Both the position numbers and the translations under genes were made by a program. A DNA stretch of 64,000 nucleotides from Thermanaerovibrio acidaminovorans DSM 6589 (GTDB lineage Bacteria > Synergistota > Synergistia > Synergistales > Synergistaceae), in the NCBI RefSeq assembly GCF_000024905.1, contig NC_013522.1, positions 868,001 through 932,000 of the forward strand. Direction: 5' to 3'. Shown one piece after another: positions 52,142 to 58,280 of the stretch. The notes beneath the pieces are model-generated. The model saw only the letters and a list, made by a program, of their open reading frames with translations. It searched no databases and was not told the DNA's origin. Each line of letters opens with the position of its first letter. Within the stretch, counting starts at the first letter, position 1.

Positions 52142-52894
52142 GTGGGACATAGGGTTACCAGAAGCTACAAGAAGCGCGATGGGGGAGGCATGATGTCCAA
52201 GGCGGCCATCGTCCTGTCCGCCCTGGTGGCGGTTGGGATCCTGATAGCCGGGGGCAAGTATCTCCTTACGGGGCCGCTGTTCAAGGGGAACGATGACCCC
52301 GTACAGGAGTCGGTCAAGCCCACCAGCCCGGTTGCACACCAGGAACCGGTGGTGGAGGACTTCGAGCAGGATCCGGATCTGGCGGACGTTAAGGGTTCGC
52401 AACCCGGCGTCCAAGAGGCTCCAGCGCAGCCCAAGCCGGCGAAGACCGAGGTCACCAAGAAGGCCAAGAAGGCGGTCCCGGTGGCTTCCCCGGTGGACGA
52501 CGGGGACGAAGGCAGGGCATCGGGGGCTTCGTCCGCCAAGCGAACTGCAACGCAGGAGCCCAAGGCCTCAACCGGGTCGCCCAAGCTGACGGAGGGCTCC
52601 GGCGCATCGGGGGGCAAGCAGGCCCAAGGCGCAGTCCCTCAGGGGAACAGGGCGGTGTCCATGATCCAGGTTGGAGCCTTCTCCACCAGGGCGGCGGCGG
52701 ACTCCCTGGGGGATAAGCTCAAGAAGGACGGATTGCCGGTGGTGGTACAGGAGGCGGAGGTGTCCGGCAAGACCTTCTTTAGGGTCAGGGTGCAGGTGGG
52801 CGGCGCTCAGGGGGACGTGGATGCCCTGTCCTCCAGGCTTCAGAAGATGGGGTTGCCCATCCAGCTCATATACGCCAGGGGTGGCGGCAACTGA
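52142..52894 (+). CDS. membrane-anchored SPOR-domain protein
   Basis: A 250-residue bitopic protein. It has a basic cytoplasmic tail (RVTRSYKKRD), one membrane segment (about 20-40), a long linker rich in proline, alanine, lysine and acidic residues, and a C-terminal SPOR domain (about 168-245: MIQVGAFSTRAAADSLGDKLKKDG ... FRVRVQVGG ... LQKMGLPIQLIY). SPOR domains bind denuded glycan strands at the septum, as in FtsN and DedD. The GTG is one base after the radical SAM stop and has GGGGGTG upstream; ATG at 52190 or 52193 would remove the basic tail. Confidence 0.85.
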   Translation: MGHRVTRSYKKRDGGGMMSKAAIVLSALVAVGILIAGGKYLLTGPLFKGNDDPVQESVKPTSPVAHQEPVVEDFEQDPDLADVKGSQPGVQEAPAQPKPAKTEVTKKAKKAVPVASPVDDGDEGRASGASSAKRTATQEPKASTGSPKLTEGSGASGGKQAQGAVPQGNRAVSMIQVGAFSTRAAADSLGDKLKKDGLPVVVQEAEVSGKTFFRVRVQVGGAQGDVDALSSRLQKMGLPIQLIYARGGGN

Positions 52895-54117
52895 TGTGTC
52901 CCATAGAACGCCTGGCGGATAGGCAGCGGGCCATAGAGCTGGTGGTCTCCCACCTGAACTGGGGTGACCTCCCAAGGGAGCTGATCCCCTTGGAGTCGTG
53001 CCTCGGCCGGATAACATCCGAGAGCGTGAGGGCGAAAATGCCCATGCCTCCCTTCGACCGTAGCCTTCGGGACGGCTATGCGGTGAGGTCCGCAGACCTG
53101 GTGGGGGCCTCTGAGGCTTCACCCTCTTATCTCTCCCTGGGGCGGGAGGTGATCATGGGGGCGGTGCCGGACTTCCAGGTTAACCCCGGATGGGCACACC
53201 CCATACACACCGGTGGGATACTGCCCAAGGGGGCGGACTGCGTGGTCATGTTGGAGGATACCACGCCGGCGGGGCATATGGTGGAGGTCCGGAGGTCCCA
53301 TCAGCGGGGGGATAACGTGGTCATCTCCGGTGAGGAGTCTCGGGTGGGGGATGTTCTGATAGGAGCCGGGACCCTGATAAAGGGGCCTCACGTTGCGTTG
53401 CTGGCATCCCAAGGGGAGGAGAGGGTGTCATGCCTCCGCCTGAGGGCCGCGGTCTTCAGTAGCGGGGATGAGGTGAGATCCCTGGGGGAGACGCTGGACC
53501 CGGGGACCATATACGACGTCAACGGATGGTTCCTGGTGGCGCAACTCAGGCAGATTGGCATCCAAGCGTCCTACGGAGGGGTGTTGAGGGACGATCCGGT
53601 TCTCATTAGGGACTCCCTCTTGTCGTCCCTGGAGGACAACCAGATGGTTTTGATAAGCGGCGGATCCTCGGTCAGCGTCAGGGACCACCTGGAGGGCATC
53701 TTCTCCCACACGGAGGATCCGGGGCTGTTGGTGAGGGGGGTCAACGTACAACCCGGTAAGCCGCTCCTGGCGGCGGTTACCCATCATGGCCATAGGTTGC
53801 TTTTGGGCCTTCCCGGTCACCCCCTTTCGTGTGCAGTGTCTTTCTACACCTTTCTAACCCCCCTGTTGGAGATGGGGTTGGGAGGTGAGGGGTGGAACGC
53901 AACCAAGCTGTCCATGCCCCTTCTGAAGGACCTTCCGGCCAAGCCCGGTGTTGAGGAGTTCGTCCCCGCCCTGGTCCCCCCAGATGGGGTTGAGCCCCTC
54001 ATGTCCGCCTCGGGGTACACGGGAATCCTGTCCCGATGCCATGGCTTGGTAAGGGTTCCAAAGGACAGGGAGACCTTGAGGCGAGGAGACGAAGCGGAGG
54101 TGTGGCTCTTCCGATGA
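52894..54117 (+). CDS. moeA: molybdopterin molybdenumtransferase MoeA, paralogue 1
   Basis: MoeA inserts molybdate (or tungstate) into adenylylated molybdopterin. PFDRSLRDGYAVRSADL, HTGGILPKGADCVVMLEDT, FSSGDEVRSLG and LISGGSSVSVRDH map to the four MoeA domains. LLGLPGHPLSCAVSFYTFLTPLL is the usual C-terminal-domain entry. 407 residues, full length. The ATG overlaps the SPOR gene stop by one base. It overlaps the next moeA by ATGA. Confidence 0.92.
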   Translation: MCPIERLADRQRAIELVVSHLNWGDLPRELIPLESCLGRITSESVRAKMPMPPFDRSLRDGYAVRSADLVGASEASPSYLSLGREVIMGAVPDFQVNPGWAHPIHTGGILPKGADCVVMLEDTTPAGHMVEVRRSHQRGDNVVISGEESRVGDVLIGAGTLIKGPHVALLASQGEERVSCLRLRAAVFSSGDEVRSLGETLDPGTIYDVNGWFLVAQLRQIGIQASYGGVLRDDPVLIRDSLLSSLEDNQMVLISGGSSVSVRDHLEGIFSHTEDPGLLVRGVNVQPGKPLLAAVTHHGHRLLLGLPGHPLSCAVSFYTFLTPLLEMGLGGEGWNATKLSMPLLKDLPAKPGVEEFVPALVPPDGVEPLMSASGYTGILSRCHGLVRVPKDRETLRRGDEAEVWLFR

Positions 54118-55988
54118 GGCCCATTGAACACTTGTCCAGGGTTGAGGCCATTCAGGCCCTTATTGGAACCTTCCCCCCCCTGGAGCCCAGGATCTTCCCG
54201 GTGAGGGAGGCGGTGGGGCTTGTTTTGGGCCAGGACGTATCGGCCCAGGTGAACCTTCCGGCGGTTGCAGTATCGGCGGTGGACGGTTACGCGGTGGAGT
54301 CCTCCTCCACTGGCCTTGCGAGCCCCCAGAGGCCGGTGACCCTAACTCCGGGACGCTTCCAGTGGGTCAACACCGGATCCCCCCTTCCGGAGGGGTGCGA
54401 CTCGGTGGTGATGGTGGAGGACTGTTCCGAGGATGGTGGGAACCTCCAGGTGTTCCGCTCCTGCTATCCGGGTCAGAACACCCGATTCCCAGGGGAGGAC
54501 GTCATGGCAGGTCAGCCCCTGGCGTCGAAGGGGCAGGAGCTGACCGCCCAATCGGCCTCTCTGCTCATAGGGGCAGGGGTTACCAAAGTGCTGGCCATCC
54601 CCAGGCCAAGGGTCCTCTTCATCCCCACCGGAGACGAGATCGTATCGGAGGATGTTTACGCAAAGGGCTCAAAGCCCGGGGATGTGCCGGAGACCAACTC
54701 CATACTGGCCACCAGGATCCTCGGGGAGGCCGGATTCCACGTTCACGTGCACCCGGAGATCGTAAGGGACAACCGTTCCCTCCTGGAGGAGGCGATAGAG
54801 AGGGGGACCCAGGAGTACGACGCGGTCCTCATATCCGGCGGATCCGCCAAGGGCAGGCGGGACATGGCCCATGCGGTTCTCAAGGGTAGGATCATCTTCC
54901 GGTGGTTGCTGATGAGGCCTGGTCGCCCCGCCATGGGGGCATCCGTTAACGGCAAGCCGGTGCTGGTGCTCCCCGGGTTCCCCTCCTCCTCGATGGTAAT
55001 CCTATTCACCCTGGTGGTTCCTTTCCTGTCGCACCTGTCGGGCAGGGCCCCCGCCACCTACTTCGATGTCAAGGGGGTGTGTGGGTACGAGTGCCCTCTT
55101 CTTCAGCCCATGTCCTCCCCTCCCGGGATGGAGGAGTGGGCCAAGGGGAGGGCGGTCCTTTTGGATCGGGAGGTACGGGTCTACCCATTGGGAGGTGGAT
55201 CCAGTTCCCTTTGGTCCCTGGCTGAGTCGGACGGGTTGATCCTGGTCCCCCAGGATGCGGTGGAGCTTCCAAAGGGGGCTCCAGTGAGGTTCTACCCGTG
55301 GGTTAGGATGGAACTGGACCGCCGGTGCCTCATCCAGGGCTCCGATGACCCGGCCTTCCAGTTGCTGGCCCTTGGGACCCGCCGCAGGGGTTGCGAAGTG
55401 GTGATTCGGCGGGTTGGCAGCATGGGAGGGGTAATGGCCCTTAGCCGCGGGGAGGCCCACGGGGCAACCTGTCACGTGTTGGACCCCGAAAGTGGCAGGT
55501 ACAACGTGATCGTTGACCGCCTCGATGGGGAGGGTGATTGGACCAGGGTCCTGCTTTTCCGCCGTCAACAGGGCCTGATGGTGGCCCCCGGGAACCCCAA
55601 GGGGATACACCACATATCTGACCTGGCTCGCGAGGACGTCAGGATAGCGAATAGGCAGCACGGATCCGGGACCAGGATCCTGCTGGATCACCTGCTGGTC
55701 TCAAACGGGCTGAGCCCCGATCAGGTAAGGGGATACGACTCTGTCTGCGTGTCCCACGGGGACGTGGCCATGAGGGTGCTCAACGGTTTCGCCGACGCGG
55801 CGCTGGGCATCAGGAGCGCCGCGATGGCGATGGGACTGGACTTCATACCCCTGGTGGAGGAGCCTTACGAGTTGGTCTATCCGTCAAGGTACCGGGGGCA
55901 TCCCGCCATGGAGGCGCTGGTTGAGATGGCGGAGGATCCGGAGTGGAGGTCCAGGGTGGAGGCTATGGGGGGATACTTATGGCCCTGA
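54114..55988 (+). CDS. MoeA paralogue 2 fused to a periplasmic-binding-like (molybdate/tungstate-type) domain
   Basis: Residues 1 to about 405 are a second MoeA: VAVSAVDGYAVESS, NTGSPLPEGCDSVVMVED, FIPTGDEIVSED, LISGGSAKGRRDMAHAVL and LVLPGFPSSSMVILF. From about residue 410 a different domain follows with the features of cytoplasmic binding-protein-like modules fused to MoeA: LALGTRRRGCEVVIRRVGSMGGVMALSRGEAHGATCHV, GLMVAPGNPKGIHHISDLAREDVRIANRQHGSGTR and YDSVCVSHGDVAMRVLNGFADAALGI. Such fusions are common in archaea and anaerobes and may sense or deliver the oxyanion. ATG overlaps the previous stop; 624 residues. Confidence 0.9.
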   Translation: MRPIEHLSRVEAIQALIGTFPPLEPRIFPVREAVGLVLGQDVSAQVNLPAVAVSAVDGYAVESSSTGLASPQRPVTLTPGRFQWVNTGSPLPEGCDSVVMVEDCSEDGGNLQVFRSCYPGQNTRFPGEDVMAGQPLASKGQELTAQSASLLIGAGVTKVLAIPRPRVLFIPTGDEIVSEDVYAKGSKPGDVPETNSILATRILGEAGFHVHVHPEIVRDNRSLLEEAIERGTQEYDAVLISGGSAKGRRDMAHAVLKGRIIFRWLLMRPGRPAMGASVNGKPVLVLPGFPSSSMVILFTLVVPFLSHLSGRAPATYFDVKGVCGYECPLLQPMSSPPGMEEWAKGRAVLLDREVRVYPLGGGSSSLWSLAESDGLILVPQDAVELPKGAPVRFYPWVRMELDRRCLIQGSDDPAFQLLALGTRRRGCEVVIRRVGSMGGVMALSRGEAHGATCHVLDPESGRYNVIVDRLDGEGDWTRVLLFRRQQGLMVAPGNPKGIHHISDLAREDVRIANRQHGSGTRILLDHLLVSNGLSPDQVRGYDSVCVSHGDVAMRVLNGFADAALGIRSAAMAMGLDFIPLVEEPYELVYPSRYRGHPAMEALVEMAEDPEWRSRVEAMGGYLWP

Positions 55989-56950
55989 CCGACAGGTACA
56001 AGAGGAAGATAGACTACGTCAGGATCTCAGTTACGGACCGGTGCAACTTCCGGTGTCGCTATTGCATGCCCGAGGAGGGGATCCCCCTCTTGGACCACCG
56101 GGACCTGTTGACCTATGAGGAGCTGTCCTTCCTGTGCGACACGTTACATCGGATGGGGGTGAGGAAGGTCCGCTTCACCGGTGGGGAGCCCCTGGTCAGG
56201 AGGGGTTTCCTTGGCTTCCTTCGGGGGATCCGGGATTCCATGCCCAACCTCAAGGTGGCTCTAACCACCAATGGGGCACTGTTGGACCTCTACGCCAGGG
56301 AGATCGGTGAGATAGGCATATCGGGCCTTAACGTAAGCTTGGATACCATCCAGGAGGACAAGTTCCGGTACGTGACCAGGAACGGGGAGCTTAAAAGGGT
56401 ACTGGATGGCCTTAGGGCGTCCAGGGAGGTGGGGATCAGGTCCATAAAGGTTAACACGGTCATAATACGGGGCTTCAACGACGATGAGATAGGTGACATC
56501 CTGGCCTTCTGCCAGGAGAACGACTACCTTCTCCGGCTCATAGAGTTCATGCCCATGGACGACGGGGTTTGGAGCAAGGAGAGCTTCGTCCCCGCCGAGG
56601 AGATCCTTTCCAAGGTGAACCGGGGTGGGAGGTGGGTTCCCTTCTCCACCGGGGAGGAGGTGGCAGGCCCCGCCAGGTACTATTGGGATCCAGAGACCGG
56701 ACAGCGCATAGGGGTCATATCCGCGGTATCTAGCCACTTCTGCGCCTGGTGCAACCGGGTGAGGGTTAGCGCCACCGGCAAGATGAGGGCCTGCCTGTTC
56801 GCCAAGGAGGAGACGGACCTTAGGCGGTTCATATCCTCCGGCGACCGGGAGGGGTTAATGGCCTCCATAGTCGACACGGTTAACTCGAAGCCCCGGTGCT
56901 GGGAGGACGTGGCCACTGGGGATCTCCACATGTCCCAGATAGGAGGATAG
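55979..56950 (+). CDS. moaA: GTP 3',8-cyclase MoaA
   Basis: The radical SAM enzyme that begins molybdopterin synthesis from GTP. The SAM cluster ligands are C22, C26 and C29 (DRCNFRCRYCMPEEG). The second cluster, which binds GTP, has C255, C258 and C272 (FCAWCNRVRVSATGKMRACL). FTGGEPLVRRG and NVSLDTI are conserved. The chain ends in Gly-Gly, required for activity in MoaA. 323 residues. ATG at 55979 has a G-rich site 5 bases upstream and overlaps the moeA-2 stop region. Confidence 0.96.
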   Translation: MALTDRYKRKIDYVRISVTDRCNFRCRYCMPEEGIPLLDHRDLLTYEELSFLCDTLHRMGVRKVRFTGGEPLVRRGFLGFLRGIRDSMPNLKVALTTNGALLDLYAREIGEIGISGLNVSLDTIQEDKFRYVTRNGELKRVLDGLRASREVGIRSIKVNTVIIRGFNDDEIGDILAFCQENDYLLRLIEFMPMDDGVWSKESFVPAEEILSKVNRGGRWVPFSTGEEVAGPARYYWDPETGQRIGVISAVSSHFCAWCNRVRVSATGKMRACLFAKEETDLRRFISSGDREGLMASIVDTVNSKPRCWEDVATGDLHMSQIGG

Positions 56951-56952
56951 GG

Positions 56953-57462
56953 ATGAGCTCTTTTACCCACCTTGACGAGGAAGGTCGCCCCAGGATGGTT
57001 GACGTTGGGGGCAAGGCGCCGACCCAGAGGACCGCCTGGGCGGAGGCGAGGGTCAAGCTGACTCCCCACATCCTGGATGCGCTACTGGAGGGAGGGGTGC
57101 CCAAGGGGGAGCCCTTCTCGGTGGCGGAGCTGGCGGGGATAATGGGGGCCAAGCAGACCTTCAGCCTGATCCCCCTCTGCCATCCCATAAAGATATCCTC
57201 CGTGTCGATCCGGTGCCAACTGGATCGGGACGCCATGGAGGTGGTCATATGGGGGCAGGTCTCCGCCCTGGACGTGACCGGGGTCGAGATGGAGGCCTTG
57301 ACGGCGGTTAGCGTGGCCGCCCTGGCCTTCTACGACATGTGCAAGGCGTTGGACAAGGGGATGGAGATAAGGTCCGTAAGGCTTTTGAGGAAGACCGGGG
57401 GAAAGAGCGGCCAGTGGTTGGCCCCCGGGGTGAATCTGGAGGAGCTGGGGGATAGACCATGA
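56953..57462 (+). CDS. moaC: cyclic pyranopterin monophosphate synthase MoaC
   Basis: MoaC completes the MoaA product to cPMP. FTHLDEEGRPRMVDVGGKAPTQRTAWAEARV, AGIMGAKQTFSLIPLCHPIKIS and VTGVEMEALTAVSVAALAFYDMCKA are highly conserved, including the catalytic lysine in MGAKQT and the cofactor-binding CHP. 169 residues. AGGAGG lies 6 bases before the ATG. Two bases separate it from the moaA stop, and its own stop overlaps the next gene (ATGA). Confidence 0.96.
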   Translation: MSSFTHLDEEGRPRMVDVGGKAPTQRTAWAEARVKLTPHILDALLEGGVPKGEPFSVAELAGIMGAKQTFSLIPLCHPIKISSVSIRCQLDRDAMEVVIWGQVSALDVTGVEMEALTAVSVAALAFYDMCKALDKGMEIRSVRLLRKTGGKSGQWLAPGVNLEELGDRP

Positions 57463-58280
57463 CGATCAGGGTTCTTAGACTTTACAGAGGCGACCATGGG
57501 AACGACCTCCCCATGATCTACCTTCACACGGACAATCGGGGCAAGAGCCTGTGCAACGGGGATCCGGTTAGCATCGTCTACTCTGGCCCGGGGCCCTTGC
57601 CCGGTGGGGATGGAGGTGCGGGGTTGCTCCACCTGGTCCTATCGCATGTCCAGGGCCTAACAAAGGGGCGGTTTCTAGCCTCCACCGGTGGGGGAGCCAT
57701 CCTCGAGGTTAGGGACGGTTCATCCCTGGAGGTCCTGTTCCCTGGGTTCATCGCCGTATCCGAGAGATGTCAGGTCTGGGACCCCATAAGGACCGCGGTG
57801 TTGACCGTCAGCGACAAGGGGTCCAGGGGGGAGCGGGAGGACACCGCAGGTCCCGCGTTGGCGGAGCGGGTGGTTCGAATAGGCGCGGTGGTGGAGGATC
57901 GGGACGTGGTGCCCGACGAGGTGGAGGCCATAAGGGAGAGGATACTCCGCTGGTCATCCATGGGCATCGAGCTGGTGCTTTGCACCGGCGGCACCGGCCT
58001 TTCTCCCCGGGACGTGACCCCCGAGGCCCTGTTGGGGGTGGCGGACAAGGTTGTGCCCGGTTTCGGAGAGCTCATGAGGTCCAGGAGCGGACACGGGACC
58101 CCCAGGGCCTTCCTGTCCAGGGGACTAGGGGTGACGGTGGGCAAGACGCTGGTGCTGGCCTTCCCGGGCAGCAGGTCCGGTGCCCTTGAGTGTTTCGAGG
58201 CGGTGGAGCCCTGCGTTAGGCATGGGGTGGAGATCCTGACCGGTAAGGCCAGCGAGTGCGGCCATCACCATCATCATTAG
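57459..58280 (+). CDS. MogA/MoaB-type molybdopterin adenylyltransferase with an extra N-terminal domain and a His tail
   Basis: Residues from about 108 to 265 form a MogA/MoaB domain: RTAVLTVSDKGSRGEREDTAGPAL, LVLCTGGTGLSPRDVTPEAL and GFGELMRSRSG, with the TGGTG loop that binds molybdopterin and ATP. The preceding 107 residues do not match that family; parts (GKSLCNGDPVSIVYSG, LEVLFPGFIAVSERCQVWD) are loosely MOSC-like, but I would not assign them. The chain ends CGHHHHH, encoded at the very end, which is natural here. It is the last gene of the molybdenum cofactor set. Confidence 0.85.
   Translation: MTIRVLRLYRGDHGNDLPMIYLHTDNRGKSLCNGDPVSIVYSGPGPLPGGDGGAGLLHLVLSHVQGLTKGRFLASTGGGAILEVRDGSSLEVLFPGFIAVSERCQVWDPIRTAVLTVSDKGSRGEREDTAGPALAERVVRIGAVVEDRDVVPDEVEAIRERILRWSSMGIELVLCTGGTGLSPRDVTPEALLGVADKVVPGFGELMRSRSGHGTPRAFLSRGLGVTVGKTLVLAFPGSRSGALECFEAVEPCVRHGVEILTGKASECGHHHHH

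Follow-up and report, generated by a model that had tools for sequence, protein, structure and literature searches.

The closest described counterparts of the protein analyzed here are MogA, plant Cnx1G and the G-domain of gephyrin (EC 2.7.7.75), which have the same fold and the same conserved core residues; in structural alignment, the query is 39-45% identical to Cnx1G, gephyrin and Thermus MoaB. It differs from MogA, Cnx1G and gephyrin in possessing an extra N-terminal domain (N-domain). Likewise, the MoaB of Thermus thermophilus (2is8, 3mch) lacks this domain; its C-terminal GHH is in register with the query GHH, and it carries Glu where the query has Cys267, while the tail of gephyrin has no Cys aligned with this position in a sequence alignment. 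In the MOSC proteins YiiM, YuaD and mARC, whose fold the predicted structure of the query N-domain appears to resemble, a conserved Cys that is absent from the query domain binds Moco, and N-oxides are reduced. Fusions of MOSC with MoaB have been described as rare and unstudied (PMC10637980, where UniProt A6BK61 is named). Our analysis detected a true MOSC domain ahead of MogA in a single chain in Firmicutes and other groups (L036, L043, L048, L059, L075, L078; PF03473 E 1.5e-11 in L043), and the reversed order, MogA-MOSC, in one Synergistota family (L120, L121, L202-L206). In A6BK61, L043, L048, L059, L075 and L078 the beta domain lies directly before MogA, as in the query, and the fusions found here (L043 etc.) also share its tail motif [ED]C[GA]. 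In contrast, the MOSC domain of the fusions comprises about 145 residues, matches PF03473 and contains conserved GDAH, HRQ and Cys, whereas the query N-domain has about 107 residues and none of these features.

In the window, a stretch of 64,000 nucleotides from Thermanaerovibrio acidaminovorans DSM 6589, the mogA-type ORF at 57459-58280 of the forward strand encodes 273 amino acids with the C-terminal end GKASECGHHHHH (last residues ECGHHHHH). It is the last gene of a cluster with the order moeA, moeA-PBP, moaA, moaC and mogA, which is followed by rapZ (Table 1), and its ATG start shares 4 bp (ATGA) with the stop of moaC. The second MoeA of the cluster is a fusion with a PBP-like domain.

Table 1. 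Features of the mogA-type ORF and of the genes preceding it (positions in the window).
Feature	Position	Strand	Description or basis
N-terminal domain, residues 1-107	57459..57779	+	all-beta, putative MOSC-like fold without MOSC cysteines
MogA/MoaB-type molybdopterin adenylyltransferase domain, residues 109-261	57783..58241	+	PF00994, TIGR00177, 2is8, Foldseek
Cys267, conserved Cys/His position of C-terminal [ED]C[GA] motif	58257..58259	+	alignment, tree
His5 run, residues 269-273, predicted disordered	58263..58277	+	sequence; AlphaFold pLDDT
moeA	52894..54117	+	MoeA_N, MoCF_biosynth, MoeA_C
moeA fused to PBP-like (solute-binding) domain	54036..55988	+	MoeA_N, MoCF_biosynth, MoeA_C, PBP_like PF12727 E 5.2e-60
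moaA	55943..56950	+	Radical_SAM, Mob_synth_C
moaC	56896..57462	+	MoaC PF01967 E 6.1e-51

The assignment to the MogA type made in the original prediction was borne out by the Pfam model MoCF_biosynth (PF00994; E 1.7e-28, 99.6 bits with a cut-off of 26.6), whose match at residues 113-254 also agrees with the predicted start of the adenylyltransferase domain near residue 108, and by the NCBIfam model TIGR00177, for which the whole protein scored 109.8 bits and exceeded the cut-off of 85.35. The NCBI equivalog model for MogA of the E. coli type, PRK09417, was not reached (111.3 bits versus a cut-off of 158); judged by these profiles, the protein is a member of the MogA/MoaB family and is not an equivalog of the E. 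coli type. The best PDB match by sequence was Thermus MoaB 2is8 (E 5.7e-36), and a Foldseek comparison of the full-length structure model with the PDB recovered Cnx1G/MogA with an E-value of about 1e-16 and MogA-type chains only among the best 50 matches listed. The active-site motifs TxSD, GGTG and PGS are all present in the core, and T116, S118, D119, D128, G177-G180, D185, P236 and G237 are invariant across phyla (55 sequences). These results support the prediction of a MogA-type enzyme that would convert MPT and ATP to MPT-AMP and is encoded in a Mo/W-cofactor operon.

The run of five histidines at the C-terminus had been taken for a natural, metal-binding tail. When tails were aligned from the PGS motif in 82 distinct Synergistota and 73 other-phyla MogA proteins, position 267 was occupied by Cys in 78 and by His in four of the Synergistota sequences, and by Cys in 63 and His in eight of those from other phyla. 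Proteins with His came from Chloroflexi, from Halanaerobium and from a single Synergistota family (RHVHH, RHVQH). A tree calculated from 120 MogA cores, with the tail excluded, required a minimum of four Cys/His changes at this position, two of which were forced by well-supported branches. Such repeated interchange, with independent switches numbering from two to four or more, is what would be expected if the residue binds a metal, although Cys267 could instead be catalytic, redox-active or structural. Histidine accounted for 131 of the 457 residues following position 267 in Synergistota (29%, compared with 1.3% in the protein body), and 65 of the 82 tails held at least one, while in other phyla the corresponding proportion was 16 of 375 residues (4%). 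Two same-genus relatives end in CGHHS and CGNHG, which, together with the phylum-wide enrichment of histidine, argues that the tail is neither an artefact nor a cloned tag. The exact sequence CGHHHHH was seen in this protein only, and one relative ends in CGNHHHHHSAS. The conserved element of the tail is Cys267, and the five-His run is one of many variants. The idea of a metal-binding tail is thus favored indirectly by the conservation of Cys267, the Cys/His interchange and the enrichment of histidine, whereas the candidate ligand moves from the His5 run to Cys267. We found no relevant literature on MogA tails that are rich in His or carry a Cys. Alternatively, the His-rich end may be a generic metal-buffering or solubility tail that has no role in the cofactor pathway, so that Cys267 alone would matter as part of the MogA fold. 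The wide variation in tail length and His number, the existence of relatives devoid of tail His (CGG, CGRG, CSNRD) and the predicted disorder of the last residues (pLDDT below 50 for residues 270-273 in the AlphaFold2 model) are all consistent with this explanation, which deserves consideration but appears somewhat doubtful given that so strong an excess of histidine over the protein body is seen in this phylum only.

In agreement with the earlier view that the N-terminal part fits no family, residues 1-108 searched alone matched no Pfam or NCBIfam model, no PDB match to the N-domain was found by sequence, and residues 1-107 thus resemble no common domain at this level. Nevertheless, the N-domain is not a peculiarity of one species but a phylum-wide domain of the Synergistota, and its predicted structure appears MOSC-like. 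A related protein occurred in 37 of 41 genomes of the same lineage, in most cases aligned over its full length from about residue 3, and close relatives keep both the N-domain and the tail. A profile built from 29 sequences (alignment A2) matched 92 of 188 Synergistota genomes, once in each, and these matches sit just before MogA, almost always in an open frame of sufficient length to include MogA as well. No match to this profile occurred among 299 genomes sampled from the L043 phylum or among 297 sampled from that of L105 (Mailhella). Within the 29 sequences, F97 is the sole fully invariant residue, R4, Y21, H23, N33, L82, G96 and S101 are conserved in at least 90%, and no Cys is conserved. 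Apparent N-domains at L051 and L055 were rejected as chance joins because the frame is interrupted upstream of MogA, which in L051 comes after a stop codon and an unrelated ORF that we take to be MobB-like, and which in L055 has a frame open for just 8 residues upstream. A Synergistaceae MAG encodes a MogA with an aberrant N-domain of about 128 residues (L041:2959-3840) that forms a long branch on the tree. Relatives of L105 (L218-L220, L233-L247) have their own divergent N-terminal MogA extension of about 100 residues, which is poorly conserved and resembles the N-domain and MOSC weakly, and some Synergistota genomes as well as L105 relatives encode fusions of MoaC with MogA (L122 in G036, L035, L221-L232).

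Our reading of the N-domain fold is based on one good structure model, which was obtained with AlphaFold2 from alignment A4 for the full-length protein (mean pLDDT 94.4, pTM 0.90) and in which residues 1-107 fold into ten strands without any helix (pLDDT about 88-97); the N-domain folded alone from five sequences gave a pLDDT of 35.6 and no usable model. When Foldseek was run against a viral structure library that is nearly free of MogA and yielded no strong MogA match, 'Molybdenum cofactor sulfurase, C-terminal', a MOSC protein, clearly ranked first by homology probability (0.99; next match 0.84), although with an E-value of 0.021 and a TM of only 0.24 normalised to the whole protein. Foldseek gives no query range, and the match was assigned to the N-domain because MogA is an alpha/beta protein while MOSC is a beta-barrel. 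Moreover, both the order of strands in the N-domain and the way it is joined to MogA agree with the MOSC-MogA fusions, and the existence of true fusions elsewhere makes a degenerate MOSC the natural reading. At the sequence level, none of 29 N-domain homologues matched PF03473 at E-values up to 1, and a comparison of 80 N-domains with 44 MOSC domains by hhalign was colinear over 77 columns (P 0.009, probability 4.5), with 57 of 200 block-permuted controls reaching the same score; as far as profiles can tell, MOSC homology is not significant and is unproven. Cys104, Cys108 and Cys117 are invariant in the MOSC comparison set and, as noted above, the N-domain has no conserved Cys. Based on the predicted structure, the N-domain is probably a shrunken or degenerate MOSC-like domain that lacks the MOSC cysteines. 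It might instead be an unrelated all-beta fold with no tie to MOSC, recruited once in Synergistota for oligomerisation or docking. The lack of matches in Pfam, NCBIfam and PDB sequences, a profile score within the block-permuted noise and the absence of the MOSC signature residues all favor such an origin, which we nonetheless regard as less likely in view of the Foldseek probability and of a strand order and join to MogA like those of the fusions.

In summary, our preferred reading, to which we assign a probability of roughly 0.6, is that of a MogA-type adenylyltransferase with a Synergistota N-terminal domain, a shrunken MOSC-like beta-barrel devoid of the MOSC cysteines, and with a putative metal role of the tail. 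The MogA core would perform ordinary MPT adenylylation, while the N-domain may be a module for docking or pterin handling that has no catalytic activity, keeps the dithiolene intermediate bound to protein and links it to partner proteins. Located just past the last helix, Cys267 (or the His that replaces it in some lineages) might bind a soft metal or act as a guard close to the dithiolene, and the additional histidines of Synergistota tails could allow stronger metal capture by a flexible tail. Domain content, conservation, the interchange of Cys and His, the His enrichment of the tails and the operon are direct observations. The MOSC relationship is here drawn from predicted structure, and we likewise infer metal binding and a position of Cys267 near the substrate, with Cu(I), Mo or W as candidate metals. 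A more specific proposal, by analogy with plant Cnx1G, is that the His tail binds copper and serves to place Cu(I) on the MPT dithiolene or to take it off. The Cys/His interchange, the His enrichment of the tail and the close similarity in fold between the MogA core and Cnx1G with bound MPT (1uux) are compatible with it; however, His enrichment is not seen outside Synergistota even though MogA is conserved there, strict anaerobes handle other soft metals, and the copper of Cnx1G may be protective or adventitious, which together make a dedicated copper site improbable.

The window genome contains three AOR-family genes, one molybdopterin oxidoreductase match and two separate MOSC genes, which stand alone outside the window (genome positions 226460-226780 and 419650-419958) and belong to clearly different classes. 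A complementary distribution of N-domain and MOSC was considered and dismissed, as this genome has both. With Pfam models that scored in 11 control genomes, MoaE was not found in the window genome or in 25 relatives, and a profile of divergent MoaEs gave a single marginal match in 41 genomes (E 7e-4, in a 348-residue frame). Similarly, 30 of 47 other-phyla genomes with the same MogA type, some of them incomplete, showed no MoaE match. Since the Synergistota genomes searched are without MoaE, dithiolene formation in them is unexplained; the corresponding step has been given as 'unknown' in Geobacter metallireducens (PMC2700814), and MOSC proteins have been suggested as MoaE substitutes in Dehalobacter (PMC4751268). 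Cys267 was rejected as a marker of missing MoaE, as the Cys and His states both occur with and without MoaE and no clear association was seen. That the protein shares in dithiolene making and replaces MPT synthase, with Cys267 as sulfur carrier and the N-domain as holder of the pterin precursor, is very improbable despite the lack of MoaE matches in the Synergistota tested and the Dehalobacter proposal, because the N-domain has no conserved Cys, His replaces Cys267 in some MoaE-less genomes and the standalone MOSC genes are better candidates. Compensation for MoaE by this MogA protein is likewise a long shot that the distribution of Cys267 does not support, and there is only a slim chance that in MoaE-less Synergistota the N-domain and Cys267 receive or guard sulfur or metal during dithiolene building.

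MOSC-MogA fusions and MoaE-less pathways are already known, while we did not find the combination and the Cys/His switch described. The Synergistota protein is a variation on the MOSC-MogA theme that is real and phylum-wide, and compared with the original prediction the emphasis would now lie on Cys267 rather than on the His5 run, and on a soft metal in place of copper. The main interest of the protein lies in its host bacteria, in which the enzyme normally responsible for inserting sulfur into the cofactor was not found. How anaerobes make the dithiolene when MoaE/MoaD are missing is a stated open question for Geobacter and Dehalobacter (PMC2700814, PMC4751268), and Cys267, H23 and N33 in a small soluble protein offer concrete handles on sulfur and metal handling. 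Moreover, the Cys/His switch provides a checkable clue for MogA enzymes at large.
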